Shown piece by piece: positions 2,725-34,696 of a stretch of DNA of 35,178 bases (its first letter is position 1; the number at the start of each line of letters is the position of its first letter). The position numbers were made by a program, and so were the translations under genes. Below the pieces are notes generated by a model that saw only the letters and a list, made by a program, of their open reading frames with translations, was not told the origin of the DNA and did not search any database. The DNA comes from Gammaproteobacteria bacterium. Lineage in GTDB: Bacteria > Pseudomonadota > Gammaproteobacteria > Thiohalomonadales > Thiohalomonadaceae. Location: the NCBI GenBank assembly GCA_003252455.1, contig QKED01000082.1, forward strand, positions 1 through 35,178, read 5' to 3'.

Positions 2725-2750
2725 TATCTAAGGTAACTATAACTTAGATA
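2725..2750. other. AT-rich inverted repeat between usg and fimV
   Basis: TATCTAAG (2725-2732) and CTTAGATA (2743-2750) form a perfect 8-bp inverted repeat with a 10-nt spacer. The usg stop codon lies inside the right arm. No good T-tract follows on the minus strand, so it could be a weak terminator or an operator for fimV. A nearby CCCC-TTCG-GGGG hairpin (2654-2665) sits just upstream of the proposed fimV GTG. Confidence 0.4.
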
Positions 2751-3772
2751 TAGTCTTTTACCAAAATCTCTGCGATTTGAATACCGTTCAAAGCGCTACC
2801 TTTGCGCAAATTGTCGATTGTGACCCACAAAGTTACATTCTCTTCGCTTATAGGGTGCTGGCGCAGACGTCCGACCAACACCTCGTCCTGGCCTATCGCC
2901 TCCCCCACCGGGGTAGGGTAACCAGCGCCGTGGTTTGCGTCCATCAGCGCCAAACCGGGCGCTTCGGCAAGGGCCTCGCGCAGCAACGCCAACGCCACCG
3001 GCTGGGCGAACTCCAGCGTCAGGGTGGCACTGTCACCGTAGAAAGTAGGGACCTGCACAGCGCTCACCTGCGCCTGCGGCAGGTTGTAATCGAACAGGCG
3101 CTGCAACTCTTCGGCCAACCCCAGTTCAGCCGAACTCCAGCCCTCTGCATCCAGCCCCCCCACCTGAGGGTGGAGGTTGAAGGCGACCTGGGATGGCAGC
3201 CCATCCAGCTCCAGCTCCCGGCAGTTGAGCAGGGCCACGGTCTGACGCGCGAGGCGATCGACACCCTGGCGCCCGGCGTGCGAGATGGAGTAAAGGGCGG
3301 TAATGCTGAGGCGGTTGAGTGGTGCCAGCCCCTGCAGTGGCGCCAACACCAAGGCGAGGGCGCAGCTGAGCGCGTCCGGCACAGCCACGAGCCCGCTCTC
3401 GCGCAGGTCGACCAGGGCGTGCGGATTGAGCTCCGGGAGCACCAGCGGTACACCTGTGGCGTAACGATGGGTGGCGGTGAGGTCCACCACCAGCGCCCCG
3501 GCACCGAGGGCGCGCTGGGCCCACTCCTGCACCTGTTCCGACTCGCCGTCGCAAATCACCACGAGTTGCGCCATACCGAAGTCGAAGGCTTCGGCACTGG
3601 CCACACGCCAGTGTTTGCCCCCGCACTCCACCCGCCCACCGGCCGCCTCGTCGGACTCCAGAGGGAAGAGCTCGGCGAAGGGAAACGCCCGTTCGCCGAG
3701 CAGGGTGATGAAGGCCTCCCCAATGAGGGAGGTACTACCGATGACGGCCAGATCGACCTTGTTCGACGGCAT
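2744..3772 (-). CDS. usg: Aspartate-semialdehyde dehydrogenase-like protein (Usg/Asd2), probably non-catalytic
   Basis: A 342-aa ASADH-fold protein starting MPSNKVDLAVIGSTSLIGEA, with the N-terminal NAD(P)-binding glycine pattern. In true ASADH the catalytic cysteine lies in an NPNC or GGNC motif. Counting back from the conserved PL, the matching segment here is VPDALSC (residues 131-137), which places Ala134 at the cysteine position and the nearest Cys three residues later. This resembles E. coli Usg and the Pseudomonas paralogue lying between asd and fimV, whose function is unsettled. The gene begins 10 nt after asd, so the two are probably co-transcribed, and fimV follows. Dehydrogenase activity is doubtful and a structural or regulatory role is possible. 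Confidence 0.9.
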   Translation of the reverse strand: MPSNKVDLAVIGSTSLIGEAFITLLGERAFPFAELFPLESDEAAGGRVECGGKHWRVASAEAFDFGMAQLVVICDGESEQVQEWAQRALGAGALVVDLTATHRYATGVPLVLPELNPHALVDLRESGLVAVPDALSCALALVLAPLQGLAPLNRLSITALYSISHAGRQGVDRLARQTVALLNCRELELDGLPSQVAFNLHPQVGGLDAEGWSSAELGLAEELQRLFDYNLPQAQVSAVQVPTFYGDSATLTLEFAQPVALALLREALAEAPGLALMDANHGAGYPTPVGEAIGQDEVLVGRLRQHPISEENVTLWVTIDNLRKGSALNGIQIAEILVKDYI

Positions 3773-3782
3773 GCAGTACGAC

Positions 3783-4895
3783 TCAGCCTTCGAGCAGGAT
3801 GCGCAACATACGGCGCAGCGGCTCGGCAGCGCCCCACAGCAGCTGGTCGCCGACGGTGAAGGCGGAGAGATATTCGGGACCCATCTTCAGCTTGCGCATG
3901 CGCCCGACGGGCACGGTGAGGGTACCGGTGACAGCGGCAGGGGTGAGCTGCTCCATGGTGAGCTGGCGGTCGTTCGGCACCACCTTCACCCAGTCGTTGT
4001 GCGCGGCGATGATGGCGTGGATCTCGTCGAGCGGCACATCCTTGGTCATCTTGATGGTCAGTGCCTGGCTGTGGCAGCGCATGGCGCCGACGCGCACGCA
4101 GAGGCCGTCGATCGGCACCTGATTGGCGGAGCGACCGAGGATCTTGTTGGTCTCGACCTGGGCCTTCCACTCCTCCTTGGACTGCCCACTCTCCAACTGG
4201 ACGTCGATCCAGGGGATCAGGGAGGCGGCCAGCGGCACCGGCCAGGCGTCGAGCGGGTAGCGGTCGGAGCGGAGGAAGTCGGTCACCTGCTTGTCGATCG
4301 CCAGGATCGCGGAGGCCGGGTCGTCGAGCAGCCCCTTCACCTCGGCGTTGACCGCGCCCATCTGCTGGATCAGCTCGCGCATATTGCGCGCACCGGCACC
4401 GGAGGCGGCCTGGTAGGTCATCGGCGAGATCCACTCCACCAGCCCCTGCTCGAACAGGCCGCCGATGGCCATGAGCATGAGGGAGACGGTGCAGTTGCCG
4501 CCGACGTAGGTCTTGATGCCGTTGGCGAGGCCGTCCTTGATCACGTTGAGGTTGACCGGGTCAAGGATGATGATGGCGTCGTCCTTCATACGCAGGCTGG
4601 AGGCGGCGTCGATCCAGTAGCCGTCCCAACCGGTGGCACGCAGGTCGTCGTAGACCGCCTTGGTGTAGTCGCCACCCTGGCAGGTGACGATCACATCCAT
4701 CGCCTTGAGCTCGTCGATGCTGTTGGCATCCTTGAGCGGCGGCACCTCTTTGCCGATATCGGGGCCGGGCTGACCGGCCTGAGAGGTGGTGAAGAAGACG
4801 GGCTCGAAGTGGTCGAAATCGGCCTCCTCACGCATGCGCTGCATGAGCACGGAACCGACCATACCACGCCAACCGATCAAACCTACGCGCTTCAT
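3783..4895 (-). CDS. asd: Aspartate-semialdehyde dehydrogenase
   Basis: Asd catalyses the NADPH-dependent reduction of L-aspartyl-4-phosphate to L-aspartate-4-semialdehyde, the branch-point step to lysine/diaminopimelate, threonine and methionine, in the cytoplasm. The 370-aa length is usual for the gammaproteobacterial enzyme. It shows the nucleotide-binding start [21 protein letters not shown], the catalytic Cys135 in GGNCTVSLM, the [11 protein letters not shown] active-site segment and the [11 protein letters not shown] histidine motif. These are all intact, unlike the adjacent paralogue. It sits 81 nt downstream of leuB and 10 nt upstream of usg on the same strand. It is the only catalytically complete asd in the window and is therefore likely essential. 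Confidence 0.97.
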
Positions 4896-4976
4896 TTACT
4901 CTGACTCCTGTACGTCTCTTACACACCCCTCGGGGCGCGACCTGAAGTGATTTACGCTCTGACGGGGCCGCCGCCC

Positions 4977-6056
4977 TTAGGCACGCATCGCCGCGACCAC
5001 GGCGTCGCCCATGCCAGCAGTGCCGACCTTGGTGCAACCCTCGGTCCAGATGTCGCCGGTGCGCACACCTTCGTCGAGCACCTTGTTCACGGCGGCCTCG
5101 ATGCGCTCGGCCATCTCCGGGGCGTCGAGGGTGTAGCGCAGCATCATGGCCACGGAGAGGATGGTGGCCAGCGGGTTGGCCAGGTCCTTGCCGGCGATGT
5201 CGGGGGCGGAGCCGTGGATCGGCTCGTACATCCCCTTGCTGTTGGCGTCCAGCGAGGCCGAGGGGAGCATGCCGATGGAGCCGGTGAGCATGGCGGCGCA
5301 ATCGGAGAGGATATCGCCGAACATATTGGTGGTGACCATCACGTCGAACTGCTTGGGCGCACGCACCAACTGCATAGAGGCGTTGTCGACGTACATGTGC
5401 GAGAGCTGGATCTCCGGGTAGGCCTTGGCCTCCTCGATCATCACCTCACGCCACATCTCGGTGCACTCCAGCACGTTGGCCTTGTCCACCGAGCAGACAC
5501 GCTTGTTACGCTTCATGGCGATATCGAAGGCGACCTTGCCGATGCGACTCACCTCGGACTCCTTGTAGACCAGGGTGTTGTAGCCCTGACGCTCGCCGTT
5601 CTCCAGCACGCGGATACCGCGCGGCTGACCGAAGTAGATGCCGCCGGTCAGCTCGCGCACGATCATGATGTCGAGACCACTGACCACCTCGGGCTTGAGG
5701 GTGGAGGCGGAGGCGAGCTGCGGGTAGAGGATGGCCGGGCGCAGGTTGGCAAACAACCCGAGCTCGGCGCGCAGGCCGAGGAGGCCCTTCTCCGGGCGCA
5801 CGGCGATGGGTAGAGACTCCCACTTGTACCCACCCACAGCGCCAAGCAGCACCGCGTCGGCCGCCTTGGCCAGCGCCAGGGTCGCCTCGGGCAGCGGGGT
5901 GCCGGTGGCGTCATAAGCCGCACCGCCCACCAACCCATCTTCCATCTCGATGCTCAGGCCGAAGTCGTCACGCAGCACTTCGAGCACCTTGACCGCCTCG
6001 GCGACGATCTCCTGGCCGATGCCGTCACCCGGCAGAATGGCAATCTTCTTGGTCAT
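4977..6056 (-). CDS. leuB: 3-isopropylmalate dehydrogenase
   Basis: LeuB oxidatively decarboxylates (2R,3S)-3-isopropylmalate to 2-oxoisocaproate with NAD+, in leucine biosynthesis. The 359-aa protein opens [18 protein letters not shown]. It carries the arginines of the substrate site ([25 protein letters not shown]), the metal-binding aspartates (NMFGDILSD) and the NAD-site segment [20 protein letters not shown]. It lies downstream of leuD with a 189-nt gap that holds a GC hairpin and repeat sequence, so it may have its own promoter. The methyltransferase gene that sits between leuD and leuB in Pseudomonas is absent here. Confidence 0.97.
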
Positions 6057-6092
6057 AGTCTCAACAGTTCCAATAGTCGGTAGATACGACAG

Positions 6093-6112
6093 CGCCCCGC
6101 ATGCACGGGGCG
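6093..6112. other. Perfect GC hairpin upstream of leuB
   Basis: CGCCCCG (6093-6099) and CGGGGCG (6106-6112) pair around the 6-nt loop CATGCA, 37 nt ahead of the leuB ATG and downstream of leuD. There is no T-tract on the minus strand, so a simple intrinsic terminator is not clear. It may be an mRNA processing or stability element. Confidence 0.45.
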
Positions 6113-6166
6113 TGGCGAAAACGTTTCATTATACGCTGGCTAGCGCCTTGATTCGATAGCTGCGAA

Positions 6167-6240
6167 TGTGCCACGGAGGCACAGAGGACACGGAGAAGAG
6201 GCAGTTTAGGGATTGCACTCTCCACTCCGTGCCTCTGCTG
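6167..6240. repeat. CACAGAGG-type intergenic repeat with inverted partner
   Basis: The segment 6167-6201 reads TGCCACGGAGGCACAGAGGA, then CACGGAGAAGAGG. An imperfect inverted copy (CTCCGTGCCTCTG) lies at 6225-6237. The same motif recurs near 29093 and between 33365 and 33511, which suggests a dispersed repeat family. It lies in the leuD-leuB gap. Confidence 0.6.
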
Positions 6241-6245
6241 CGCGC

Positions 6246-6896
6246 TCAGCCCCGTCCGGGGAAGAGCCAGGGCGCCTCGGTGGCACGGCGCTGTTCGTAG
6301 GCGCGGATGTCGTCCACGTGCTGCAGGGTCAGGCCGATGTCGTCCAGGCCGTTGAGCAGGTTGTGGCGGCGGGTGTCGTCCACCTCGAAGGCGATCACCT
6401 CACCCTCGGGGGTGGTGATGGTCTTGGCCTGCAGGTCGATGGTCGGCTGCCACGGCTGCTCACTCGCCGCCTCTGCCTCGAACAACTTCTGCACCGTGGC
6501 GGCGTCCAGGCGGATGGGCAGGATGCCGTTCTTGAAGCAGTTGTTGTAGAAGATGTCGGCGAAGCTCGGGGCGATGACCGCGCGGATGCCGAAGTCGAGC
6601 AGCGCCCAGGGGGCGTGCTCGCGGCTGGAGCCGCAGCCGAAGTTGTCGCGCGCGAGCAGGATCTGCGTCCCGGCGTAGCGCGGCAGGTTGAGCACGAAGT
6701 CGGGGTTGATGGGCCGCTTGGAGTTGTCCATGCCCGGCTCGCCGTGGTCTAGGTAGCGCCACTCGTCGAACAGGTTGGGGCCGAAGCCGGAGCGCTTGAT
6801 CGACTTGAGGAACTGCTTGGGGATGATGGCGTCGGTGTCGACGTTGGGGCGGTCCATGGGGGCCGCGACGCCGGTCAACTGGGTAAACTTATCCAT
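6246..6896 (-). CDS. leuD: 3-isopropylmalate dehydratase small subunit
   Basis: LeuD pairs with LeuC to isomerise 2-isopropylmalate to 3-isopropylmalate. The 216-aa protein has the family opening with the [19 protein letters not shown] substrate-loop motif and the conserved [15 protein letters not shown] swivelling-domain motif. It begins 13 nt after the leuC stop and is almost certainly co-translated with it. Length and motifs are normal for the bacterial small subunit. Confidence 0.97.
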
Positions 6897-6909
6897 TCTT
6901 CTTCTCCTC

Positions 6910-8313
6910 TTAGGCGCTGCGCACGTCGACGAAGTGACCGTGGATGGCGGCAGCGGCGGCCATGCTCGGGCTCACCAGATGGGTACGCCCATCCTTGCCC
7001 TGACGCCCCTCGAAGTTGCGGTTGGAGGTGGAGGCGCAGTGCTCACCCGGCTCCAGGCGGTCGGCGTTCATCGCCAGACACATGGAGCAGCCCGGCTCGC
7101 GCCACTCGAAGCCCGCCTCGATGAAGACCTTGTCTAAGCCTTCGGCCTCGGCCTGCTGCTTGACCAGGCCAGAGCCCGGCACCACCAGCGCCTGCTTGAC
7201 GCTGGCGGCGACCTTTTTGCCCTTGGCCACTTCGGCGGCCTGACGCAGGTCCTCAATGCGCGAGTTGGTGCAGGAGCCGATGAAGACGCGGTCGACCGGG
7301 ATGGCGCTGATCGGCATGCCCGCCTTGAGGCCCATGTACTCCAGCGCCTTCTGCATGCCGGTAGCCTTGACCTTGTCGGCCTCGGCAGCCGGGTCGGGCA
7401 CGCTGGCGTCGACCGGCAGCACCATCTCGGGCGAGGTGCCCCAGGTGACCATCGGCTTCAGGCGGGCGGCGTCGATCACCACCTCTTTGTCGAACACGGC
7501 GTCGGCGTCGGAGTGCAGCTCACGCCAGGCGGCCACGGCGGCCTCCCACTCTGCGCCCTTGGGGGCGAAGGGGCGACCCTCGAAGTAGGCGATGGTCTTC
7601 TCGTCCACCGCCACCATGCCGGCGCGGGCGCCCGCCTCGATGGCCATGTTGCAGACGGTCATGCGACCCTCGACGGAGAGGTCCATGATCGCCTCACCGG
7701 CGAACTCCAGGGCGCAGCCGGTGCCACCGGCGGTGCCGATCTCACCGATGATCGCCAGCACGATGTCCTTGGCGGTGACACCCTCGGGGGCGTGGCCCTT
7801 CACGGTGACGCGCATGTTCTGCATCTTCTGCTGCACCAGGCACTGGGTGGCGAGCACGTGCTCCACCTCGGAGGTGCCGATACCATGGGCCAGGGCACCG
7901 AAGGCGCCGTGGGTGGAGGTGTGCGAGTCACCACAGACCACGGTCATGCCGGGCAGGGTCGCCCCCTGCTCCGGGCCGACCACATGCACGATGCCCTGAC
8001 GGATATCGTCCATGCGGAACTCGTCGATGCCGAAGTCGGAGCAGTTCTGGTCCAGCGTCTCGACCTGGGTGCGCGAGATGGGGTCGGCGATACCGACGTG
8101 GCGGTCGGTGGTCGGTACGTTGTGGTCCGGGGTGGCGACCACGGAGTTGGTGCGCCACACCGGACGACCGGCCATGCGCAGCCCCTCGAAGGCCTGCGGC
8201 GAGGTCACCTCGTGGACCAAGTGGCGGTCGATGTAGAGCAGGCTGGTGCCGTCCGGCTCGCTGCGTACCACGTGGGCGTCCCACAACTTGTCGTAGAGTG
8301 TCTTTGCGGCCAT
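6910..8313 (-). CDS. leuC: 3-isopropylmalate dehydratase large subunit
   Basis: LeuC carries the [4Fe-4S] cluster of isopropylmalate isomerase. The three cluster cysteines are visible as Cys348 (FIGSCTNSR) and Cys409/Cys412 (EPGCSMC). The [13 protein letters not shown] motif around residues 127-139 is also present. At 467 aa it has the standard length. The start ATG at 8313 is preceded by a consensus AGGAGG with good spacing. The gene is divergent from a LysR-family regulator across a 108-nt intergenic region containing a perfect palindrome, so LysR control of the leuCD unit is likely, as proposed for the same arrangement elsewhere. Confidence 0.97.
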
Positions 8314-8392
8314 CTGTTGTTCCTCCTAGTCAGTGACAGTGAGGTTACCGAATCGGTCAGCATTACTCCAATTCATATTTTTCATATAATTG

Positions 8393-8407
8393 ATTCCAAT
8401 TTGGAAT
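8393..8407. promoter_or_regulatory. Candidate LysR operator, perfect interrupted palindrome
   Basis: ATTCCAA-T-TTGGAAT is a perfect 7-1-7 palindrome in an AT-rich stretch between leuC and the LysR gene. It fits the T-N11-A outline of LysR-type sites: the 15-mer contains T and A at that spacing. It lies just upstream of the LysR start, where autoregulation and divergent control would be expected. Binding is inferred. Confidence 0.55.
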
Positions 8408-8421
8408 ATGGAATCAGTGCT

Positions 8422-9288
8422 GTGGAGTTTGCCAGCCTCAACACCTTTCTCGCCGTGGCCGAATCGGGCTCCTTCTCCCTTGCCGCCGAGCGCCTCTTCC
8501 TCACCCAACCGGCGGTGAGCAAGCGCATCGCCGCACTGGAGTCGGACCTGGGTCAGGCGCTGTTCGACCGCATCGGTCACCAGATCCGCCTCACCGAGGC
8601 GGGCCGCACCCTGCTGCCGCGCGCCCGCGCCATGCTCGACGCCCTGGCCGACACCCGCCGCACCCTGGCCAACCTCGATGGGCATATCGCCGGGCCGCTG
8701 CACTTCGCCACCAGCCACCACATCGGCCTGCACCGCCTCGCACCGCTGCTTAGGCACTTTCACCAGACCTATCCCGAGGTGGAGCTGGCCATCGACTTTC
8801 TCGCCTCGGAGGAGGCGATTAGACGAATTCAGCACGGCGAGCTGGAGCTGGCGGTGATCACCCTCCCCCCTCAGGCGCCACCGCAGCTCATCTGTACACC
8901 GATCTGGAACGACCCCCTCGAACCCGCCGTCGCGCGCGACCACCCGCTTGCCAGCATCCACTCACTGACGTTGGAGACGCTGACCAGCCACCCGGCGATC
9001 CTCCCCGAGCCCGACACCTATACCCGCGAGGTGATCGACCAGGCACTCGCCCCGAACAAGGCCAATGTGCTCATGCAGACCAACTACCTGGAGACGATCA
9101 AGATGCTGGTGACGGTGGGGCTCGGCTGGAGCCTGCTGCCGAGCCGCATGCTTGGAGAGGGGTTGATTGCGCTGCCGGTGGAGGGGCTCCATCTCACACG
9201 TCCACTCGGTATCGCGCGCCATCGCGGCCATACCCTCTCCAACGCCGCCGCGGCATTCATCCAATGGCTGGAACAGGAGCAGACCTGA
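8422..9288 (+). CDS. LysR-family transcriptional regulator
   Basis: A DNA-binding regulator with the usual LysR layout: a winged helix-turn-helix at residues 1-60 (FLAVAESGSFSLAAERLFLT, then QPAVSKRIAALE) followed by a periplasmic-binding-protein-like effector domain. The reading frame is open far upstream, antisense to leuC. The GTG at 8422 is preferred because it gives the typical short LysR N-terminus (VEFASLNTFLAV) and has GGA about 9 nt ahead. TTG at 8401 is an alternative. The product is 289 aa. It is divergent from leuC and probably regulates it, with an isopropylmalate-like co-inducer as a reasonable guess. A strong hairpin follows the stop. Confidence 0.92.
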   Translation: MEFASLNTFLAVAESGSFSLAAERLFLTQPAVSKRIAALESDLGQALFDRIGHQIRLTEAGRTLLPRARAMLDALADTRRTLANLDGHIAGPLHFATSHHIGLHRLAPLLRHFHQTYPEVELAIDFLASEEAIRRIQHGELELAVITLPPQAPPQLICTPIWNDPLEPAVARDHPLASIHSLTLETLTSHPAILPEPDTYTREVIDQALAPNKANVLMQTNYLETIKMLVTVGLGWSLLPSRMLGEGLIALPVEGLHLTRPLGIARHRGHTLSNAAAAFIQWLEQEQT

Positions 9289-9335: not shown

Positions 9336-10784
9336 TCACTGCATGTCGCTGCCCACGACCACGCGCACGGCCACGTCCTTGGGTAACGCCGGCTCCTTGC
9401 TTACCACCTGGTTGCCCGGTAACACATGCCCCACCTTGACGCCGTCGCCGGAGAGGCCCGGACGGTAGCGTACCCAGCTGACCGGTGAGGTCGTGCCACT
9501 GTCACTGTCGACCCGTACTACGTTGTAGCCTGCGGCACGCAGCTGCTCGGCGACCTTGTTGCCCGCACTCAGGCGCCCCGACTGGTTGAGCACCTCCACC
9601 TGTAACCCACAGCGGGAGTGGAAATCGTCGGCGTTGTAGCACCCGACATTCGCAGCCGCCGCCAGTGGGGTTGCAGCGACGGTGACCGGCTTGGCGACGG
9701 CCTGCACCCCCTTACCCGCCGCCGTCGCCACGGGTCTCACCGCCGCACTCGGCACGGCAGCCACCACGCCGCGCGGGACACGCACCGGCACATCCACGAC
9801 TCGGTTCACCGCCTCGGCCTGATAGACCTTGGGTGCCGGCGGCGCAGGGGGGGCGGGGGTCAAGGGGGCAGCCACCACCGTCTCGTCGCTCTTGGGCGGG
9901 GTCGTGTCTTGCGCAGCCTCACCAGGCGATTTTGCCTCAACCACCACCACCATCTTCCGCGCCGCCGTGGCGTTGGTGTTGAACGAGACCCCGGCGTAGA
10001 CCTGGCTCTCGGGCTGATAGGGTTGATCATCCTCGGAGAGGTCCAGTGTCGCCCCCACAGAGAAGGTGACGAAGCGGTTGCGCTGATAGCGCATCGAGGG
10101 GGTGAGGGTGAGGGTCTGCTGCGCGTCGTCGTCCTGTCGGTTCACCAGCTCCACGGCGTAGGTGCCTTTGGCGCCATCGGCGTGATACTCGTATCCGAGC
10201 GCGGCACTGGTCTCGTAGAGGCGCACCCAGCTACGACTCACCGCGGGTGAAAACGTGAAGAGCGGGCGGTCTACCTGACCACGCCCCAACGAGAGGTAGA
10301 CACTGCTACTGCCACCCATGTAGCCCACATTCACCGCCCCCCCGCCCATGTCGTAACCACTGCCGACCCCGGTTAGGGCGCTGGCGGAGAAGACCGAGAG
10401 ATAACCGGAGAGGGAGGCGGCGGCGCCACGCCGCTCTCCGAGGAAGCGCCAGTTGAAATAGCCACCGATGTTCTGCAGGCCGTTGGCGTTGAGGCTGTTG
10501 TTAGAGAGATAGGGCATGGAGAGCCCCGCCTCGAAGCGCTCGGTAAGGGCGCGCGAGAGGGAGGGGGTAAGGCGGAAATCCGACTGCTCCTTGCCGGTCA
10601 CCGGGTCCTTGTAGGTGTCGTACTGGATGAAGATGGCGCTATCCACATCCCCGTGCGGCATGGTGACCGGGGTGCGACTGATGAGCAGGCCGGTACCGCC
10701 ACCGGGGTGCGAGACCCCCGCCATGGCCGCCCCACCGCACAGAGCAGAGAGGGTCACCCATGCGGGTAGGAGTTTGCTGCGCAT
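9336..10784 (-). CDS. Exported barrel-like protein with C-terminal LytR_C-type domain (paralogue 1)
   Basis: I do not recognise a named gene. The protein has a signal peptide (ends AAMA), then about 250 residues rich in alternating aromatic/polar strands (GGYFNWRFLGE, YLSVFSASA, VYLSLGRG, QVYAGVSF) that resemble an outer-membrane beta-barrel. A Pro/Ala/Val-rich linker follows. Last comes a domain of about 85 residues (QVEVLNQSGRLSAGNKVAEQ, later SWVRYRPG and VAVRVVVGSD) that looks like LytR_C. In numbering from the alternative start at 10793, Cys385 and Cys395 directly precede this domain. ATG at 10784 is chosen because AGGGA is 9 nt upstream; for 10793 it is adjacent. A paralogue lies at 12774-14183. 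Location (outer membrane) and an envelope role are inferred. Confidence 0.8.
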   Translation of the reverse strand: MRSKLLPAWVTLSALCGGAAMAGVSHPGGGTGLLISRTPVTMPHGDVDSAIFIQYDTYKDPVTGKEQSDFRLTPSLSRALTERFEAGLSMPYLSNNSLNANGLQNIGGYFNWRFLGERRGAAASLSGYLSVFSASALTGVGSGYDMGGGAVNVGYMGGSSSVYLSLGRGQVDRPLFTFSPAVSRSWVRLYETSAALGYEYHADGAKGTYAVELVNRQDDDAQQTLTLTPSMRYQRNRFVTFSVGATLDLSEDDQPYQPESQVYAGVSFNTNATAARKMVVVVEAKSPGEAAQDTTPPKSDETVVAAPLTPAPPAPPAPKVYQAEAVNRVVDVPVRVPRGVVAAVPSAAVRPVATAAGKGVQAVAKPVTVAATPLAAAANVGCYNADDFHSRCGLQVEVLNQSGRLSAGNKVAEQLRAAGYNVVRVDSDSGTTSPVSWVRYRPGLSGDGVKVGHVLPGNQVVSKEPALPKDVAVRVVVGSDMQ

Positions 10785-10949
10785 GACATTCATTCCCTAC
10801 ATCCCTTACTATCGATTGGAGGGCATGTCTGGGCATACCTCCACCGGGGCCTCACCGTCCGCCACTCAGTCGGCCAGGACCATTTCTAGAATCAACTTCA
10901 TATTTATAGCATATATCGCTGTAACAAAAAGGGTTTTGCTGACGACAGG

Positions 10950-11495
10950 ATGATACAAGATGCGCCAACACTCGCCCCTATCATTGCCCCCGAGAGCGGC
11001 CACCATGCCCTTGCGCTCTGGTACGCCGAGCCGTTGAGCCCAGCGCAGGCCGAGCGGCTCGCTGCCTGGGCCAAGGCGCGGCGTCTGGGCCTGCGCCGTC
11101 CCGCCCCCCTGGCCGGCCTCGGCGAGCTGATCGCCCGCTTCTGGCTGGGCCAACCCACCTACACGCTCTACGAGCGTCTGGCGCAGACCCCTCAGGGGGC
11201 ACACCGTCGTGCCCTGGTGGAGCTGGTCCACGGTCAACTCCTGATGAGTCGACGTCTTGCAGGGGCCCATCACCACCTACACCGGGGCTTCGAACTGGCC
11301 TACCCACTCCTGAGCGCGCGGGATTATCTACACCTGCTACGTCGCCACGAGGCCCTCGCCCCACTACCCCTGGCGCAGACACCCAGCCCCGCCGAGGGGT
11401 TGGCGGACCTGCTGCGCGTCGCCGGCGTGATCCGCCGCCTGCAACCCCAGCACCGCGGCCACTACAGCCGCGACCCCAACGACCTCTACGGCTAG
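10950..11495 (+). CDS. Unrecognised 181-aa protein
   Basis: I do not recognise this family. It is an intact 181-aa frame with the composition of a soluble, helix-rich, Leu/Ala/His/Arg-rich protein. It has no signal peptide, membrane segment or cysteine cluster. Notable stretches are AGAHHHLHRGFELAYPLL (histidine-rich), DYLHLLRRHEAL, and a C-terminus ending in NDLYG. The gene is divergent from barrel paralogue 1 with a 165-nt AT-richer promoter region between them. It converges on the MFS gene with only 4 nt between stops. The ATG has a weak ribosome-binding site (GACAGG immediately adjacent). Position suggests a link to the surrounding envelope genes, but no function can be assigned. Confidence 0.7.
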   Translation: MIQDAPTLAPIIAPESGHHALALWYAEPLSPAQAERLAAWAKARRLGLRRPAPLAGLGELIARFWLGQPTYTLYERLAQTPQGAHRRALVELVHGQLLMSRRLAGAHHHLHRGFELAYPLLSARDYLHLLRRHEALAPLPLAQTPSPAEGLADLLRVAGVIRRLQPQHRGHYSRDPNDLYG

Positions 11496-11499
11496 GACC

Positions 11500-12660
11500 C
11501 TATCGCGCGGGCTGCACCGGGCTGCCCTCCTCCACCCATCGCCACACCAGAAAGGCCCCGACGAAGGTCAGGGCCGAGGCGATGGTGTAACTGGCCAGCG
11601 GCCCCACCCCCTCCCAGGCGATACCGCTGAAATAGCTCCCGAGTGCCCCACCGCCACCGAAGCAGAGGCCGTTGTAGAGCGCCTGCCCCTTGCCGTGGCT
11701 GCGCCCCCGGAAGTAACGATGCACCAGGGCGATGGCAGAAGCGTGAAACACGCCAAAACTAGCGGCGTGGAGCAGCTGTGCCGCGACGATCACCACACCC
11801 ACCTCGGGCATCAGGCCGATAAGTAGCCAGCGCCCACCGGTCAGGAGAAAGCTGGCGAGCAACAGCCGACGTAGACCGAAACGGGCGATGAGTCGGTGCA
11901 TGATGAGGAACAGTCCCACCTCCGCCAGTACACCGAGGGCCCAGAGCTGACCGATAACACCACGACTGTAGCCGTAACCCTCCAGATAGAGGGTATAGAA
12001 GGTGTAGTAGGGACCGTGACCGGTCTGCATCAAGGTCGCCGCGGCGAGTAGCGCGAGCACCGCAGGACGACGTAGCAGTCGCCCCATCGGCTCCCCCTCA
12101 CCCGGCGCGCCACCCTCCCCCTCATCGAGGGTCAGGGTGCTCAAGAAGATGGCCCCGTAGATGATCGCCAAGGTGGTGGGGATGAGGATCAGCGGGGCCC
12201 ACTCCAGCAGCTCACCGAGTAGGACCACGGCACAGATAAAGCCGATCGAACCCCACATGCGTACTTGGCTGTAGCGGTCGCTGTGTCGACCGAGCAGGTT
12301 GAGGGTAAGAGACTCGAACTGCGGCAGTACCGCGTTCCAGAAGAAGCTGAAGGCAAACATCACCCAGGCGATGGACCAGAACTGGTCGACGAAAAAGATG
12401 AGGCTGAAACTCCCCACCGCCATCAAGGCCCCTGCGCGGATCACCCACAGCCGCCGCCCGAGGTGGTCGGCTAGCCATCCCCACAGGTGTGGCGCCACCA
12501 CCTTGGTGAGCATGACGATGGCCATCAGCTCACCGATCTCCCGCGCACCGAAGCCGAGCCCCTTCAGGTAGAGGCTCCAGTAGGGTACCAGGGTGCCGAG
12601 TGCGGCAAAGTAAAAGAGGTAGAAGGCCGAGAGGCGCCAGTAGGGCAGCTCGTTACGCAT
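11500..12660 (-). CDS. MFS transporter, HcaT/PPP-like (MFS_1_like)
   Basis: An inner-membrane major facilitator of 386 aa with about 12 predicted membrane segments. It starts MRNELPYWRLSAFYLFYF and carries the loop 2-3 motif GWLADHLGRRLW near residue 65. The N-terminal WRLSAFYLFYFAALGTLVPY and the later RMWGSIGFI and GVFHASAIALVHRYF segments are typical of the 3-phenylpropionate transporter-like (HcaT) group, whose substrates are mostly unknown. ATG 12660 is preferred over the upstream in-frame ATG 12699: it has GGAG 5 nt ahead and removes a 13-residue unconserved tail. It lies downstream of barrel paralogue 2 on the same strand, separated by hairpins. Confidence 0.88.
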   Translation of the reverse strand: MRNELPYWRLSAFYLFYFAALGTLVPYWSLYLKGLGFGAREIGELMAIVMLTKVVAPHLWGWLADHLGRRLWVIRAGALMAVGSFSLIFFVDQFWSIAWVMFAFSFFWNAVLPQFESLTLNLLGRHSDRYSQVRMWGSIGFICAVVLLGELLEWAPLILIPTTLAIIYGAIFLSTLTLDEGEGGAPGEGEPMGRLLRRPAVLALLAAATLMQTGHGPYYTFYTLYLEGYGYSRGVIGQLWALGVLAEVGLFLIMHRLIARFGLRRLLLASFLLTGGRWLLIGLMPEVGVVIVAAQLLHAASFGVFHASAIALVHRYFRGRSHGKGQALYNGLCFGGGGALGSYFSGIAWEGVGPLASYTIASALTFVGAFLVWRWVEEGSPVQPAR

Positions 12661-12706
12661 GCATTCTCCAGGGCGCGAAGGGGTTTCAGGGGCCCACAAA
12701 TGGACA

Positions 12707-12767
12707 AGGCGACGGTGCGGAACACCGTCGCCTCGTGTCAGGCAGGGCGCCCACCCGAGGGGTGGGC
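12707..12767 (-). terminator. Two tandem hairpins after barrel paralogue 2
   Basis: GCCCACCC/GGGTGGGC (12749-12756 with 12760-12767, loop GAG) and AGGCGACGGTG/CACCGTCGCCT (12707-12717 with 12723-12733, loop CGGAA) are both perfect stems just downstream of the minus-strand stop at 12774. They probably separate that gene from the MFS gene. T-tracts are weak. Confidence 0.65.
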
Positions 12768-12773
12768 CCGAGG

Positions 12774-14183
12774 TTACAGCTTGGAGCCGAGCGGTATCAT
12801 GTCGGTACCCACCACCACGCGGATGGTAATGCCCGGGTCGAGGGAGAGTTCGCGCGTGACGATCTGATCCATCGGGATGTGGTGGGCCAGCTTCACGGCC
12901 TCGTCCGGGTAGCCGGGGCGATAGTAGACCCAGCTGATGATCTGGCGGTAATCCAGCTCGGTCACACGGGCCACATCGTAACCATCCTCACGCAGCATGC
13001 GCGCCACCTTCTCGGCCAGCACCGGGTCGCCGGAGGCGTTGATCACCTCCACCTGCATGGTGCACGGGGAGCCCGCAGTCGGCAGCTTGGAGCACTTGAC
13101 GAACTGCGTGTTGCCGTTGGTCATCAACGGACGGTACTTGATCGGGTTGAGCATCTCGGTGGTGACCGAGGCGGTCGCGTCGGAGACCTGGGCGACGATA
13201 CGAGAGGCCGCGGTATCCAGCGCCTGTGAGGCGTTACGCTCCAGGTCGGTGACCGTGGTGGAGGTGAACCAGGCGTTGGCCAGGCCATCCATGTTGCCAC
13301 TACTCGGGCGCTTGTCGGTCCAGCGCAGGGCGACGCCGAGCGGGCGGCCGACACGACGCGGGTCATTGTTGCCGTAGGAGACACCTGCGAAATAACGGGT
13401 GTGCGGCGGGGTACGGTCAGAGGGATTACCGGCGGCAAAACCGACGGTGAAGGCCCAATCGGCGTTCGGGGCGAACTTGACGCCCGGCACCACATAGGTG
13501 GCGACATTGTCCGCCTCGTCCTGGGTGGTGATGGCCTCCAAGGTCACGGCCACATCGGAGCGCGGGTGCAGCTCGAAGCCGAGGCCGACCTTCTTCATGT
13601 TGCCGCTGGTGAAGACGCGCTCCCAGCCGCCACCGGCCTTGGCCACAAAGCTGCCGGTATCGACAGTGTGTGCACCGAGGGAGAGGTGTAGGCCGTAGTT
13701 GCGCTCGTAGAAACTGAAGAGGATGTCACCACCCGAGGTGGTCTCACCGCTGCCGAGCCCCTCGGCGGCATCGCCGGTGCTGCCGGAGTAACCGGCAATG
13801 GCCACAGAGAGCGGGTCACCGTCACCACCGGAGAGGCGGAACTTGGCGAACACCTTGGAGCTGCGCACACCGGAGACATCATAGTGCGGGGCCTGGACCG
13901 TCTCGGCCACCAAACCCAACTCCATGAAATCGAAGAGGCCGACAGTGACCGAGGGGATGAGTGCGTAGTCGACGTACTCTTTACCCGTGGGGTCGTCGTA
14001 GGCATCCACCGAAGCGAACAGACCGACATCGGCGGTTGCATGTTCGAGGACATCGGCAGTACCCATGGCCACCAGTCCCGTACCTCCTTCGAGGTAGGTG
14101 AACCCGGCATGTGCCGAGCTGGAGAGGATAATCGCCGGGAGTATAGCCAGCCGGAAGCCGCTGATTTTTCGACCGATGCTCAT
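12774..14183 (-). CDS. Exported barrel-like protein with C-terminal LytR_C-type domain (paralogue 2)
   Basis: A 469-aa exported protein with a signal peptide ending SSAHA. It aligns by eye with the gene at 9336-10784: GGTGL (residues 33-37), D-x-Y-x-DP-x-GKE (60-69), L-x-PS near 76-79, and E-x-GL near 88. The middle is rich in beta-strand patterns (LHLSLGAHTV, TRYFAGVSY). A helical linker (LERNASQALDTAASRIVAQV) replaces the Pro/Ala linker of paralogue 1. Cys364 and Cys374 again form C-x9-C immediately before the LytR_C-like domain (QVEVINASG, SWVYYRPG, ITIRVVVGTD; residues 376-461). Outer-membrane location is inferred. No named family is recognised for the whole architecture. Confidence 0.8.
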   Translation of the reverse strand: MSIGRKISGFRLAILPAIILSSSAHAGFTYLEGGTGLVAMGTADVLEHATADVGLFASVDAYDDPTGKEYVDYALIPSVTVGLFDFMELGLVAETVQAPHYDVSGVRSSKVFAKFRLSGGDGDPLSVAIAGYSGSTGDAAEGLGSGETTSGGDILFSFYERNYGLHLSLGAHTVDTGSFVAKAGGGWERVFTSGNMKKVGLGFELHPRSDVAVTLEAITTQDEADNVATYVVPGVKFAPNADWAFTVGFAAGNPSDRTPPHTRYFAGVSYGNNDPRRVGRPLGVALRWTDKRPSSGNMDGLANAWFTSTTVTDLERNASQALDTAASRIVAQVSDATASVTTEMLNPIKYRPLMTNGNTQFVKCSKLPTAGSPCTMQVEVINASGDPVLAEKVARMLREDGYDVARVTELDYRQIISWVYYRPGYPDEAVKLAHHIPMDQIVTRELSLDPGITIRVVVGTDMIPLGSKL

Positions 14184-14332: not shown

Positions 14333-15427
14333 TCATACCCTGGGTGCAATGGGGGCCAGTGTCGGCGCCACCTCGGCGTTTTGTGCACGATGCCGCAGAT
14401 AGTGATCCATCAACACCAGCGCGGTCATCGCCTCGGCGATGGGCACGGCACGAATGCCGACGCAGGGGTCGTGACGCCCCAGGGTCACCACCTCGGCACT
14501 CTCCCCTTGCATATTGATGGTCTCGCCGGGGATGCGCAGGCTGGAGGTGGGCTTTAAGGCGATGGAGGCGAGCAGGTCCTGACCCGAGCTGATGCCGCCG
14601 AGCACGCCACCGGCGTGGTTGGAGCGAAAACCCTCGGGGCTCATCAGGTCGCGGTGCACGCTGCCGCGCTGGTCGACCACACCGAAGCCGTCGCCGATCT
14701 CCACCCCCTTGACCGCGTTGATGCTCATCAGCGCATGGGCCAGGTCGGCGTCGAGGCGGTCGAAGATCGGCTCACCGAGCCCCACCGGCATGCCGGTGGC
14801 GATGACGTTGACCCGCGCACCGATGCTGTCGCCCTCCTTGCGCAAGGCGTCCATGTAGGCCTCCAGCTCCGGCACCTTGTCGGGGTCGGCGCAGAAGAAG
14901 GGGTTGTGGTCGACCTGGTCGAGCTGCGCGCAGCCGAGGGCGAGGGGACCGAGCTGGGCCAGCCAGCCACGGATCTCGATACCCTTGGTGGCGAGATATT
15001 TTTTCGCGATGCCCCCGGCGGCGACACGCATGGCGGTCTCACGCGCGGAGGAGCGCCCGCCGCCGCGATAGTCGCGCAGGCCGTACTTCTGCTGGTAGCT
15101 GTAGTCGGCATGGCCGGGACGAAAGAGATGCATGATCTCCGAGTAGTCCTTGGAGCGCTGGTCGGTATTCTCGATCAACAGGCCAATAGGGGTGCCGGTG
15201 GTGCGCCCCTCGAAGACGCCGGAGAGGATCTTCACCTGGTCGGGCTCGCGACGCTGGGTGGTGTGGCGTGAGGTGCCGGGGCGGCGGCGGTCGAGGTCGT
15301 GCTGCAGGTCCGCTTCGCTCAGTTCCAGGCCGGGGGGACAGCCGTCGACGATGGCGCCGAGGGCGGGACCGTGGCTCTCGCCGAAGGTGGTGACGGTAAA
15401 GAGTTTGCCGTAGCTGTTGCCGGACAT
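14333..15427 (-). CDS. aroC: Chorismate synthase
   Basis: AroC eliminates phosphate from 5-enolpyruvylshikimate-3-phosphate to give chorismate, using reduced FMN. The 364-aa protein begins [20 protein letters not shown], with the signature histidine in GESHG. It also carries the [14 protein letters not shown] and [14 protein letters not shown] motifs of the FMN/substrate site and the [16 protein letters not shown] segment. Length and motifs are normal. It lies 28 nt downstream of hemN on the same strand, but the two pathways are unrelated. Confidence 0.98.
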
Positions 15428-18771: not shown

Positions 18772-20265
18772 TTACATCACCACCAGGCGCTCTTCCGGCT
18801 CATCCCCATCCTCCGCGTGATTACCCGGATTGAGGTGGGCGGTGAGCCAGGGGAGCGCCAGAATGACCATGAAGGTCAGGGCTATGGCGGGAATTTGCAA
18901 GGGAAAATCCACCGTGAGCTGGATCAGCAGCGCGACGATGGACATCATCACGCCAAAGGTGATGCCACGCATGGTAGGGCTATGGCGTCGGTAGTGCACC
19001 CGCAGCGCAGTGACAAAGGCAAGGGAGACGAAGGTGGCGAGGATGAGAAAGCCGATGATGCCGTTCTCGGCGGTGAACTCCAGGTAATCGTTGTGCCCAT
19101 GGTCGATATACCCCCCCAAGTAGATGCGTACCTTGTAACGGGTGAGTGCGGCCTGATAGCTGCCTGGGCCGGTACCGAGGAGAGGATAATCACGGATCAG
19201 CGCAAGGGTTGCCTCGTTGTACTCAGCACGGTCGGAGGTCTCCAGGTCGGTCCTCCCGATGCGTTCCACCACCTGACTGAGGCCGAACCAGGAGCCCACC
19301 ACCAGGATATCGATGACGATCAGGCTGACGATCAGGCGCACAGTACGTCGACTGGCGTGCTTGGAGGTGAAAAGCGCCAACAACCCCACCAGCAACAGGC
19401 TGGCGAAAAAGGCGGCATTACCCATACGTGAGTGGGTCATTACCACCGCGACGACCATCACCATCAGATAGAGACGTAGACGCAGGTCGGCACTAAAGAG
19501 CCAATTGAGCACGGCACGGGCACGCGCCTTCCACGTGGCGAGGCTACCGGTGTAGGGGCGCGCCAGCAACAGCCCAATACCGAGACCTAGACAGAGGTTG
19601 AGGTAGGCGGCCAAGTGGGTGCGTGCGACGAAGGTACCGGTGGCGAGGCCGCGCATGTAGTCCTTCTCCACCAAAAAGCCGTATTCGAGTCCAGTAAGCA
19701 CCATACTGGCGCCATAGGCGGCCTGGAACAGCCCGGAGAAGACCAGCACGCGGATCAACAGCACCATGCGCCGTTCACTGCGTACTAGTAAAAGGGTGAG
19801 GAGGAACATCAGCACATAGCTGCTACCCTTGAGCAGCGCCTGCTCGGTACCGTCCGGCTGTAGACTCAGCGGGAACCAGGCAGTGTCACGAAAGCCGGCC
19901 ACCTGGGCATACATCTCGGCGGTATTGGGCGAAACGAGGGCGATCAGACCCGGAGGTAGGGGGATCAGATAGAGCCCTTGATAGAGTAGCCAGACCCCGA
20001 GCAGGATGAGCGGCGTGCGGGCGCGAAGAATGATTTGAGGGATATGCACTTGGCCACGCATCAACAGTAGCAGCCATCCGGCCACTAGCGTGTAGACCCA
20101 GATATCCATAACCCCCCAGGCCCAGGCGCGCACCCCGGCGTTGGGTATCGGCGCCCACACCAGTAATACGAGAAAACCCCAAAAGATGAGATTGTCGGGC
20201 TGCTTGCCCCGCGCCTGTGGCTTTTTCGCCCACTCCTGTTCGGTATCGACGCCCTGACCAAACAT
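18772..20265 (-). CDS. O-antigen ligase/polymerase family membrane protein (Wzy_C)
   Basis: A 497-aa polytopic inner-membrane protein with about 10-12 hydrophobic segments. It shows the signature of the Wzy_C/WaaL family in its large periplasmic loop: THSRMGNAAFF, YPLLGTGPGSYQ, and HGHNDYLEFTAENGIIGF. Members ligate or polymerise undecaprenyl-linked glycans (O-antigen, exopolysaccharide) or glycosylate pilin. The substrate cannot be told from sequence. Both termini are charged and cytoplasmic-looking, and the C-terminus is acidic (EDGDEPEERLVVM). No glycosyltransferase genes are adjacent, so it is an isolated copy. A 204-nt non-coding gap with a small palindrome precedes it. Confidence 0.9.
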   Translation of the reverse strand: MFGQGVDTEQEWAKKPQARGKQPDNLIFWGFLVLLVWAPIPNAGVRAWAWGVMDIWVYTLVAGWLLLLMRGQVHIPQIILRARTPLILLGVWLLYQGLYLIPLPPGLIALVSPNTAEMYAQVAGFRDTAWFPLSLQPDGTEQALLKGSSYVLMFLLTLLLVRSERRMVLLIRVLVFSGLFQAAYGASMVLTGLEYGFLVEKDYMRGLATGTFVARTHLAAYLNLCLGLGIGLLLARPYTGSLATWKARARAVLNWLFSADLRLRLYLMVMVVAVVMTHSRMGNAAFFASLLLVGLLALFTSKHASRRTVRLIVSLIVIDILVVGSWFGLSQVVERIGRTDLETSDRAEYNEATLALIRDYPLLGTGPGSYQAALTRYKVRIYLGGYIDHGHNDYLEFTAENGIIGFLILATFVSLAFVTALRVHYRRHSPTMRGITFGVMMSIVALLIQLTVDFPLQIPAIALTFMVILALPWLTAHLNPGNHAEDGDEPEERLVVM

Positions 20266-34120: not shown

Positions 34121-34696
34121 ATGCAGATCGGTACCTTCATCCTCCTCGGCATCCTGGTGGTGCTGCTTATCTACATCGTCATCCTCTACAACGGCCTGGT
34201 GGGCATCAAGCACGCGGTGGACAAGGCGTGGTCCAACATCGACATCCTGCTCAAACAGCGCCACGACGAGCTGCCCAAACTAGTGGAGGTGTGCAAGCAG
34301 TATATGGGCTACGAGAAGGAGACCCTGGAGCGGGTGATGCAGGCGCGCAGCGCGGTGGCCAATGCCCGAGCAGCGGGCAACGCTGCCAGCCTCGGTCCGG
34401 CCGAGGCGCAGCTGCGCATGGGGCTCGGCAACCTCTTCGCCGTGGCCGAGGCCTACCCGGAGCTGAAGGCCAACGACAACTTTCAGCACCTCACCGGGCG
34501 CATCACCGGCCTGGAGAACGCCATCGCCGACCGCCGCGAGTTCTACAACGAGCAGGTGAACATCAACAACGTACGCATCGAACAGTTCCCCGACATCCTC
34601 GTCGCCCGCCTGTTCAACTTCCGCGAACGCGCCCTGCTCACCTTCGACGCCGAGGAGTTGAAGGATGTCAACCTGGGCAAGCTGTTCAACGGCTGA
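34121..34696 (+). CDS. lemA: LemA family protein
   Basis: A 191-aa membrane-anchored helical protein. One N-terminal membrane segment (FILLGILVVLLIYIVILYNG, residues 5-24) is followed by the LemA signature: YNGLVGIKHAVDKAWSNIDI, LLKQRHDELPKLVEVCKQYM, YPELKANDNFQHL, and RREFYNEQVNINNVRIEQFP. The C-terminal long helices lie outside or inside the cell depending on topology, which I cannot decide. Function is unknown. It starts with GGAGA 6 nt upstream, and the following gene begins 3 nt after its stop. Confidence 0.95.
   Translation: MQIGTFILLGILVVLLIYIVILYNGLVGIKHAVDKAWSNIDILLKQRHDELPKLVEVCKQYMGYEKETLERVMQARSAVANARAAGNAASLGPAEAQLRMGLGNLFAVAEAYPELKANDNFQHLTGRITGLENAIADRREFYNEQVNINNVRIEQFPDILVARLFNFRERALLTFDAEELKDVNLGKLFNG

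Follow-up and report, generated by a model that had tools for sequence, protein, structure and literature searches.

What is a LytR_C domain doing at the end of a predicted outer-membrane barrel? The question is raised by two minus-strand open reading frames (ORFs), W1 (positions 9336-10793, 485 aa) and W2 (12774-14183, 469 aa), in a DNA stretch of 35,178 nucleotides (contig QKED01000082.1, assembly GCA_003252455.1) from a gammaproteobacterium of the family Thiohalomonadaceae. The whole stretch is called here the window. Both proteins have a common layout: a signal-peptide-like start is followed by a predicted 12-stranded barrel, a linker of 100-125 residues and a C-terminal LytR_C domain. This architecture is real and belongs to the barrel-plus-wall-domain kind, and the fusion itself is unreported in the literature searched. 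The domain layout, the predicted barrel, the recurrence of the fusion, the existence of a lipoprotein-like version and the position beside recycling genes were all obtained by computation. The reading that we tentatively prefer, giving it a little less than an even chance, is that LytR_C is displayed to peptidoglycan, or to the peptidoglycan machinery, by an outer-membrane anchor that is either a barrel or a lipid; insertion into the membrane, a periplasmic position of the tail and binding to the wall are what we infer.

Domain layout of W1 and W2

LytR_C (PF13399) was found by Pfam at residues 397-483 of W1 (positions 9345-9605; E 1.7e-10, 42.1 bits) and at residues 376-461 of W2 (12801-13058; E 2.6e-11, 44.7 bits), in both cases over the cut-off of 22.2 bits. 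This domain is otherwise known chiefly from wall proteins of Gram-positive and mycobacterial cells. The first-pass annotation of the window had proposed LytR_C ends and signal peptides for both proteins; the LytR_C ends are confirmed, and both starts are signal-peptide-like by eye. W1 and W2 are the sole two places in their genome matching PF13399 at E <= 1. At the same threshold, neither protein matches the catalytic LytR-CpsA-Psr (LCP) domain PF03816, the OmpA-like domain PF00691 or the SLH domain, and both are unmatched by PF13557 (Phenol_MetA_deg) in Pfam. The tails taken alone have no second Pfam family in common. For the profile of alignment A1, which covers W1, W2 and the five homologues described below, the best solved chain is 2m5y ('putative tuberculin related peptide'; E 3.7e-7), ahead of a designed protein (E 0.0026). 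Chain 2m5y is presumably related to VirR.

By eye, the signal peptides cover residues 1-25 of W1 (10719-10793, cut after A-M-A) and 1-26 of W2 (14106-14183, cut after A-H-A). The next portion contains a GGTGL segment and the predicted outer-membrane barrel; it comprises residues 26-274 of W1 (9972-10718, GGTGL at residues 32-36) and 27-273 of W2 (13365-14105, GGTGL at residues 33-37). The N-terminal block that had been described as shared is genuine in the pair and only loose across the five homologues: in alignment A1, GG[ST]GL is exact in four of the seven proteins, and the DxYxDP..GKE part is present in W1 and W2 only.

Both linkers are modelled with low confidence. The linker of W1 (residues 275-396, 9606-9971) is rich in proline and alanine, and that of W2 (residues 274-375, 13059-13364) contains a possible helix at residues 311-336. 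Immediately N-terminal to LytR_C both proteins have a C-x9-C pair, formed by cysteines 385 and 395 in W1 (9609-9641) and 364 and 374 in W2 (13062-13094). These are the sole cysteines of the mature proteins, and judging by the sequences the pair is likely to form a disulphide. Of the five homologues, only the first one from the metagenome-assembled genome UBA6915 has such a pair before LytR_C, in the form C-x8-C (468/477). Scanning for promoters and terminators yielded no usable result.

Structure of the predicted barrel

AlphaFold2 models were built with the seven-sequence alignment. The model of W2 (mean predicted local distance difference test score, pLDDT, 66.9) has 12 strands between residues 51 and 270. 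In this region the pLDDT of ten-residue blocks is 59-86, and three blocks are below 70. The model of W1 (mean pLDDT 61.8) has strands between residues 50 and 273, again 12 after joining two strands split by DSSP. The tail of W2 (residues 377-458) is modelled as strand-helix-strand-strand-helix-strand-strand with block pLDDT 71-89, following a low-confidence linker at residues 274-373, and the tail of W1 (residues 398-480) is of the same kind.

Both Foldseek and VIA-align rank 12-stranded barrels first. The top fold match is FapF (5o65; VIA-align Z 20.8 for W2 and 22.0 for W1), with Foldseek TM-scores of ~0.54-0.66 when normalised to target length. The COG4313 channel 4rl8 (Z 20.3 and 20.8, respectively) is matched along its whole chain, and NalP 1uyn has Z 20.2 and 19.5. 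Matches to the barrel take up the lists of PDB hits, which therefore bear on the barrel and not on the fold of the tail. Thus the barrel suggested by the first-pass annotation is supported in both proteins: 12 strands are predicted, the best matches are solved 12-stranded barrels, and the barrel region is followed by an alpha/beta-type tail, closure being judged from the structural matches. The last barrel strand carries the pattern G-[VIM]-[ST]-aromatic in five of the seven proteins. Barrels folded by BAM carry an end signal resembling this pattern.

The GGTGL segment precedes strand 1, which begins at residue 50-51 in the two models, and there are about 25 residues between the signal peptide and this strand. 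In the structure of COG4313, the N-terminal ~14 residues ahead of strand 1 enter the lumen (PMC4493636). Since GGTGL likewise precedes strand 1, it is fair to suppose by analogy that this segment may lie inside the barrel lumen.

Distribution of the fusion

The combination of barrel, linker and LytR_C was found in five further proteins from three other gammaproteobacterial genomes. UBA6915 (G052) encodes a tandem pair (L022:5561-7264 and 7299-8642) and a third protein (L023:1095-2417), and there is one protein each in G006 (L024:9896-11137) and G140 (L032:7691-8908). The barrel of the G140 protein is recognised from alignment A1 only, at 20-25% identity, and tblastn with W1 or W2 (E <= 1e-5) hits its tail, not its barrel. 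LytR_C is over the cut-off in six of the seven fusion proteins, the exception being G006, and all seven are matched at E <= 10. The tail of the G006 protein aligns to the tails of W1 (E 4.4e-11) and W2 (E 2.9e-9), and its barrel matches PF13557 (E 2.7e-7). The linkers have 45-211 residues across the seven proteins, and several look heptad-like by eye.

The searches covered 369 genomes sampled from the class (own genome included), 20 genomes of the family, 56 relatives and 398 genomes sampled from the phylum. PF13399 was observed in 8 of the 369 class genomes, and seven were kept. The rejected case, G144 (L051:8175-8693, minus strand), is an ACT-domain protein passing the LytR_C cut-off with 25.3 bits, and thus PF13399 can catch ACT-type domains. 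The seven are the barrel fusions of the own genome, G052 and G140 (the last with the caution about its alignment), the lipoprotein-like proteins of G230 and G330, a TPR protein of G126, and the protein of G321.

The G321 protein (L050:7674-8369, plus strand) is secreted-looking, short and coiled-coil-like; LytR_C is matched at E 2.5e-9 over profile positions 2-57, and neither a barrel nor a lipobox was seen by eye. The G126 protein (L049:7381-8406, plus strand) has a lipobox-like N-terminus, TPR repeats and a C-terminal LytR_C. Its gene follows a T2SSE-type ATPase gene and two genes that, from their sequences, are presumably tadB and tadC relatives; thus LytR_C belongs also to at least one Tad-type locus.

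When W2 was used as the query, 4 of the 56 relatives were matched at E <= 0.001: the own genome, G006, G052 and G010, whose weak match (E 7.2e-4) contains two stops and was dropped. W1 matched 3 of the 56. The profile of the fusion matched 3 of the 20 family genomes at E <= 1e-5, namely the own genome, G006 and a weak case in G012 that was dropped. The latter protein (L044:990-1784, minus strand; E 3.7e-6) matches none of the Pfam families (E <= 0.01). Seen by eye, it contains a single hydrophobic segment as well as stretches resembling coiled coils, and its C-terminal part gives the weak match. At E <= 1e-10 the same profile matched 2 of the 398 phylum genomes, the own genome and the tail alone of G126.

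A scan of the contig collection with W2 alone gave no relative. The collection, 84,980 species by its own description, was also scanned with the tail motif [LV]GH[IVL]LPGNQ, a scan that misses tails lacking the exact motif, that of W2 included, and the own genome is possibly outside the collection. There were 21 stretches forming eight loci; six are real (five lipoprotein-like and UBA6915) and two are spurious. The latter (L058, L059) have no slot genes nearby and contain an unrelated ORF by eye, and were dropped.

The view that the fusion is unusual is thus upheld: the predicted barrel and LytR_C are on one polypeptide, and few of the genomes searched have it. No report of a barrel-LytR_C fusion was found in the literature searched, with subscription journals mostly outside that search. 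The two papers that seemed nearest, PMC4605624 and PMC7549365, treat LytR-CpsA-Psr proteins, not LytR_C on a barrel.

The lipoprotein-like form and its genomic slot

Five loci (L052-L056) encode short LytR_C proteins of 218-249 aa, all with a G-C-S lipobox and the LPGNQ motif. LytR_C is over the cut-off in all five and is of the same subtype as in the barrel tails. Under the +2 rule, a serine following the lipidated cysteine suits outer-membrane sorting. The TPR protein of G126 is another case of proteobacterial LytR_C on a lipoprotein-like protein, but it has TPR repeats and lacks the LPGNQ motif.

All five genes are directly upstream of YkuD-NagZ-MscS on the same strand, with CYTH intervening in four cases, and none of the five loci yielded a relative of AmpG. 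The tandem pair of UBA6915 takes this slot too, the genes after it being CYTH, AmpG, YkuD, NagZ and MscS. One slot beside muropeptide-recycling genes therefore holds either the barrel or the lipoprotein-like form of LytR_C. UBA6915 belongs to family f34, as against f90 for G230 and G330. Only the copies in UBA6915 were compared with NCBIfam. There AmpG and NagZ pass the cut-offs of their models; the YkuD protein (L022:10368-10943, plus strand) is nearest to ElsL, an L,D-carboxypeptidase of cell-wall recycling (E 4.1e-56, below the cut-off). The ElsL-like YkuD, NagZ and AmpG of UBA6915 form a compact muropeptide-recycling cluster.

The LCP domain PF03816 is absent at E <= 0.001 from all eight LytR_C-bearing genomes, one of which (G052) is 86% complete; the control for this search gave matches in 7 of 14. 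Hence LytR_C probably has another ligand in these genomes, and it seems to work without its usual partner.

Possible roles

The preferred reading would work as follows. After export and removal of the signal peptide, the first ~250 residues would form a 12-stranded outer-membrane barrel of the COG4313/FapF shape, and the lumen may take up the GG[ST]GL-type segment that precedes this barrel's strand 1, as it does the N-terminus in COG4313. The linker and LytR_C would hang into the periplasm from this anchor. LytR_C would then engage the wall, so that the barrel, and hence the outer membrane, would be tied to it. Peptidoglycan or a wall-bound protein is the simplest ligand, because LytR_C is found on two predicted outer-membrane anchors and next to recycling genes. 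This would be the principle of OmpA/Pal and OmpM with another wall-side domain.

Judged by sequences and models, the set would resemble OmpA/Pal: a predicted barrel or lipid anchor, a linker, and a small C-terminal alpha/beta domain that would face the wall, one such domain being shared by barrel proteins and lipoprotein-like proteins. However, the wall-side domain is LytR_C rather than PF00691, and the predicted barrel has 12 strands, whereas that of OmpA has 8. The stalked porins OmpM/SlpA offer a further analogy, as they have a barrel joined via a stalk to a wall-binding domain, the arrangement proposed for W1 and W2. In OmpM the SLH domain is N-terminal, the stalk is a coiled coil and the barrel is 16-stranded and trimeric, whereas in W1 and W2 LytR_C is C-terminal and 12 strands are predicted. 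The OmpM of Veillonella is an established example of a single protein that unites a barrel, a stalk and a wall-binding domain and serves as both tether and channel (PMC10628300).

The COG4313/Phenol_MetA_deg proteins (PF13557, 4rl8) have a 12-stranded barrel, as predicted for W1 and W2, and likewise a segment before strand 1, and the G006 homologue matches their family; W1 and W2 differ from them in having no PF13557 match and in the linker and LytR_C added after the barrel. FapF, the top fold match, is a 12-stranded barrel with a periplasmic extension (PMC5557850). It has an N-terminal coiled coil and no LytR_C described, whereas W1 and W2 have only about 25 residues before strand 1. The LytR_C-only proteins VirR and Cei of M. 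tuberculosis, which affect peptidoglycan remodelling, permeability and vesicle release (PMC11832169), likewise have LytR_C standing alone, without the catalytic LCP domain. Each of them has one predicted transmembrane domain (PMC7831098); here the predicted anchor is a barrel or a lipid, and no LCP enzyme was detected in the genomes.

Several points weigh against attachment to the wall. The models are of moderate confidence, rest on seven sequences, and have the closure of their barrels judged via structural matches. The evidence for binding of peptidoglycan by LytR_C is indirect, and a Streptomyces paper terms LytR_C a domain of yet unknown function (PMC11481543; in the same paper, CglA without LytR_C has the same salt-rescue effect as removal of the gene). 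The LytR_C of VirR self-interacts and binds the LytR_C of truncated LCP proteins, and full LCP proteins gave no signal (PMC11832169). The evidence of the recycling slot comes from relatives, not from W1 and W2, and no peptidoglycan gene turned up among those window genes that were scanned. The five genomes with the lipoprotein-like form may be close kin and thus represent fewer than five independent events, and the fusion family is rare. Finally, PF00691 is matched in all four fusion genomes (nine matches in the own genome); as OmpA-domain proteins are present, the tether would be additional, not a replacement.

One alternative is that the barrel is chiefly a channel of the COG4313/FapF kind for uptake or secretion of small molecules, with LytR_C positioning or gating it and wall attachment being minor. 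We consider this unlikely. It is consistent with the best folds, FapF (peptide secretion) and COG4313 (hydrophobic uptake), with the PF13557 match of one homologue, and with the segment before strand 1, which sits where COG4313 has its lumen-inserted N-terminus (PMC4493636). However, fold likeness shows no function, and reading through neighbouring genes by eye revealed neither catabolic nor amyloid genes, no search having been aimed at them (fap included). Moreover, the same tail is present on a lipoprotein-like protein that has no barrel, and thus the tail has its own task. This task could also be that of an activator or adaptor of a peptidoglycan enzyme, one that is anchored at the outer membrane and reaches its partner via the long linker, as LpoA and LpoB act on penicillin-binding proteins. 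This possibility, which we rate as rather unlikely, agrees with the lipoprotein-like form, with its long linker and C-terminal domain, and with the slot of UBA6915 beside an ElsL-like carboxypeptidase, NagZ and AmpG. Mutants of VirR and Cei alter peptidoglycan remodelling, and VirR contacts LCP proteins via LytR_C (PMC11832169). However, no candidate partner enzyme was identified. AmpG, ElsL and NagZ handle recycled fragments, and do so at the inner membrane or in the cytoplasm; therefore the proximity of genes names no periplasmic partner.

It is improbable that LytR_C serves self-association, bringing the barrels together in clusters or trimers without contacting the wall. The self-interaction of the VirR domain (PMC11832169), the oligomerisation of LcpA discussed in connection with LytR_C (PMC7831098) and the heptad-like look of the linkers point to such a role, but clustering of barrels leaves the lipoprotein-like version and the recycling context unexplained. 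The first-pass annotation had suggested yet another role: W1, W2, the MFS transporter and a 181-aa protein encoded between them would form one trans-envelope machine. The genes are adjacent in this window only. In relatives the MFS and 181-aa genes are found beside aroC and LysR with no barrel gene, and the stretches around the homologues contain neither of the two. Gene order thus speaks strongly against the four-gene system, to which we assign almost no probability.

If, on the other hand, LytR_C on these anchors does attach the outer membrane to the wall, it may be the third non-covalent domain with this role in diderms, beside the OmpA-like and SLH domains, carried in some Gammaproteobacteria by 12-stranded barrels and by lipoproteins and acting without LCP enzymes. 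This broader claim is doubtful. If true, it would widen the list of attachments between the outer membrane and the wall, and the proteins would also show what LytR_C binds, a matter still unsettled for Gram-positive bacteria and mycobacteria. In mycobacteria and actinobacteria LytR_C is linked to the integrity of the envelope. As it is split here from LCP enzymes and found on two apparent outer-membrane anchors, a search for its ligand could use this simple domain in a laboratory Gram-negative host.

Gene order around W1 and W2

The order of genes in the window is LysR (plus strand), W1 (minus), the 181-aa gene (plus), MFS (minus), W2 (minus) and aroC (minus). The LysR-family regulator (8425-9288) has an uncertain true start. 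The 181-aa gene (10950-11495) is a conserved neighbour that we do not judge to be a partner; its product is matched by neither Pfam (E <= 1) nor NCBIfam (E <= 0.1) and has no evident signal peptide by eye. The MFS_1_like transporter (11500-12699, start uncertain) matches PF12832 with E 3.9e-112. Its best NCBIfam model is that of the 3-phenylpropionate transporter, below the cut-off, and only a generic MFS model was passed. The chorismate synthase gene aroC (14333-15427) is a conserved neighbour of the MFS gene.

The MFS gene is present in 17 of the 20 family genomes, own included (E <= 1e-30). The loci of the 16 relatives were considered up to 1.5 kb on each side, some contigs ending sooner. 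They contain aroC in 13 cases (within ~120 bases in seven, with a gap of 0.86-1.1 kb in six) and the 181-aa gene in eight, and no relative of W1 or W2 in any. The gap in the six loci is filled by a PKHD-hydroxylase-like ORF (Pfam was run on one). In four relatives LysR is 18-42 bases from the 181-aa gene, the spot taken here by W1. W1 and W2 each stand at a junction of an old gene block. Among the other family members only G006 has a clear fusion gene; in its draft assembly the fusion is on contig C27 and MFS-aroC on contig C62.

The stretches around the homologues (20 kb for L022, 4 kb for L023, 20 kb for L024 and 18 kb for L032) and the five lipoprotein loci contain no relatives of MFS, the 181-aa gene, aroC, LysR or leuC at E <= 1e-5. 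L024 has one weak radical-SAM match to a hemN-like gene of the window. Elsewhere in the window there are an O-antigen ligase family gene (18772-20265) and a LemA gene (34121-34696). The minus-strand region 2744-8313 contains genes of the leuC, leuD and leuB types, then tandem semialdehyde-dehydrogenase family genes (2744-3772 and 3783-4895).

Origin of the pair

W1 and W2 are paralogous, as had been proposed. With W2 as the query, the own genome gives W1 in two blocks, the barrel (E 1.1e-20) and the tail (E 7.5e-18); one extra match on contig C78 is at chance level (E 0.245) and was dropped. The identity of the two proteins is 26% in the N-terminal part and 44% in the last 92 residues. A recent duplication is not favoured. 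The barrel of W2 is nearer to the second barrel of UBA6915 (32% identity) than to that of W1, and the domain trees conflict: the barrel tree groups W2 with the second UBA6915 protein (support 0.80), and the tail tree groups W2 with W1 (0.72), the support being low to moderate with seven sequences. Foreign composition of the pair was also rejected, as the GC content at third codon positions (GC3) is 0.81 in both genes, within the range of 0.75-0.95 of 14 other window genes.

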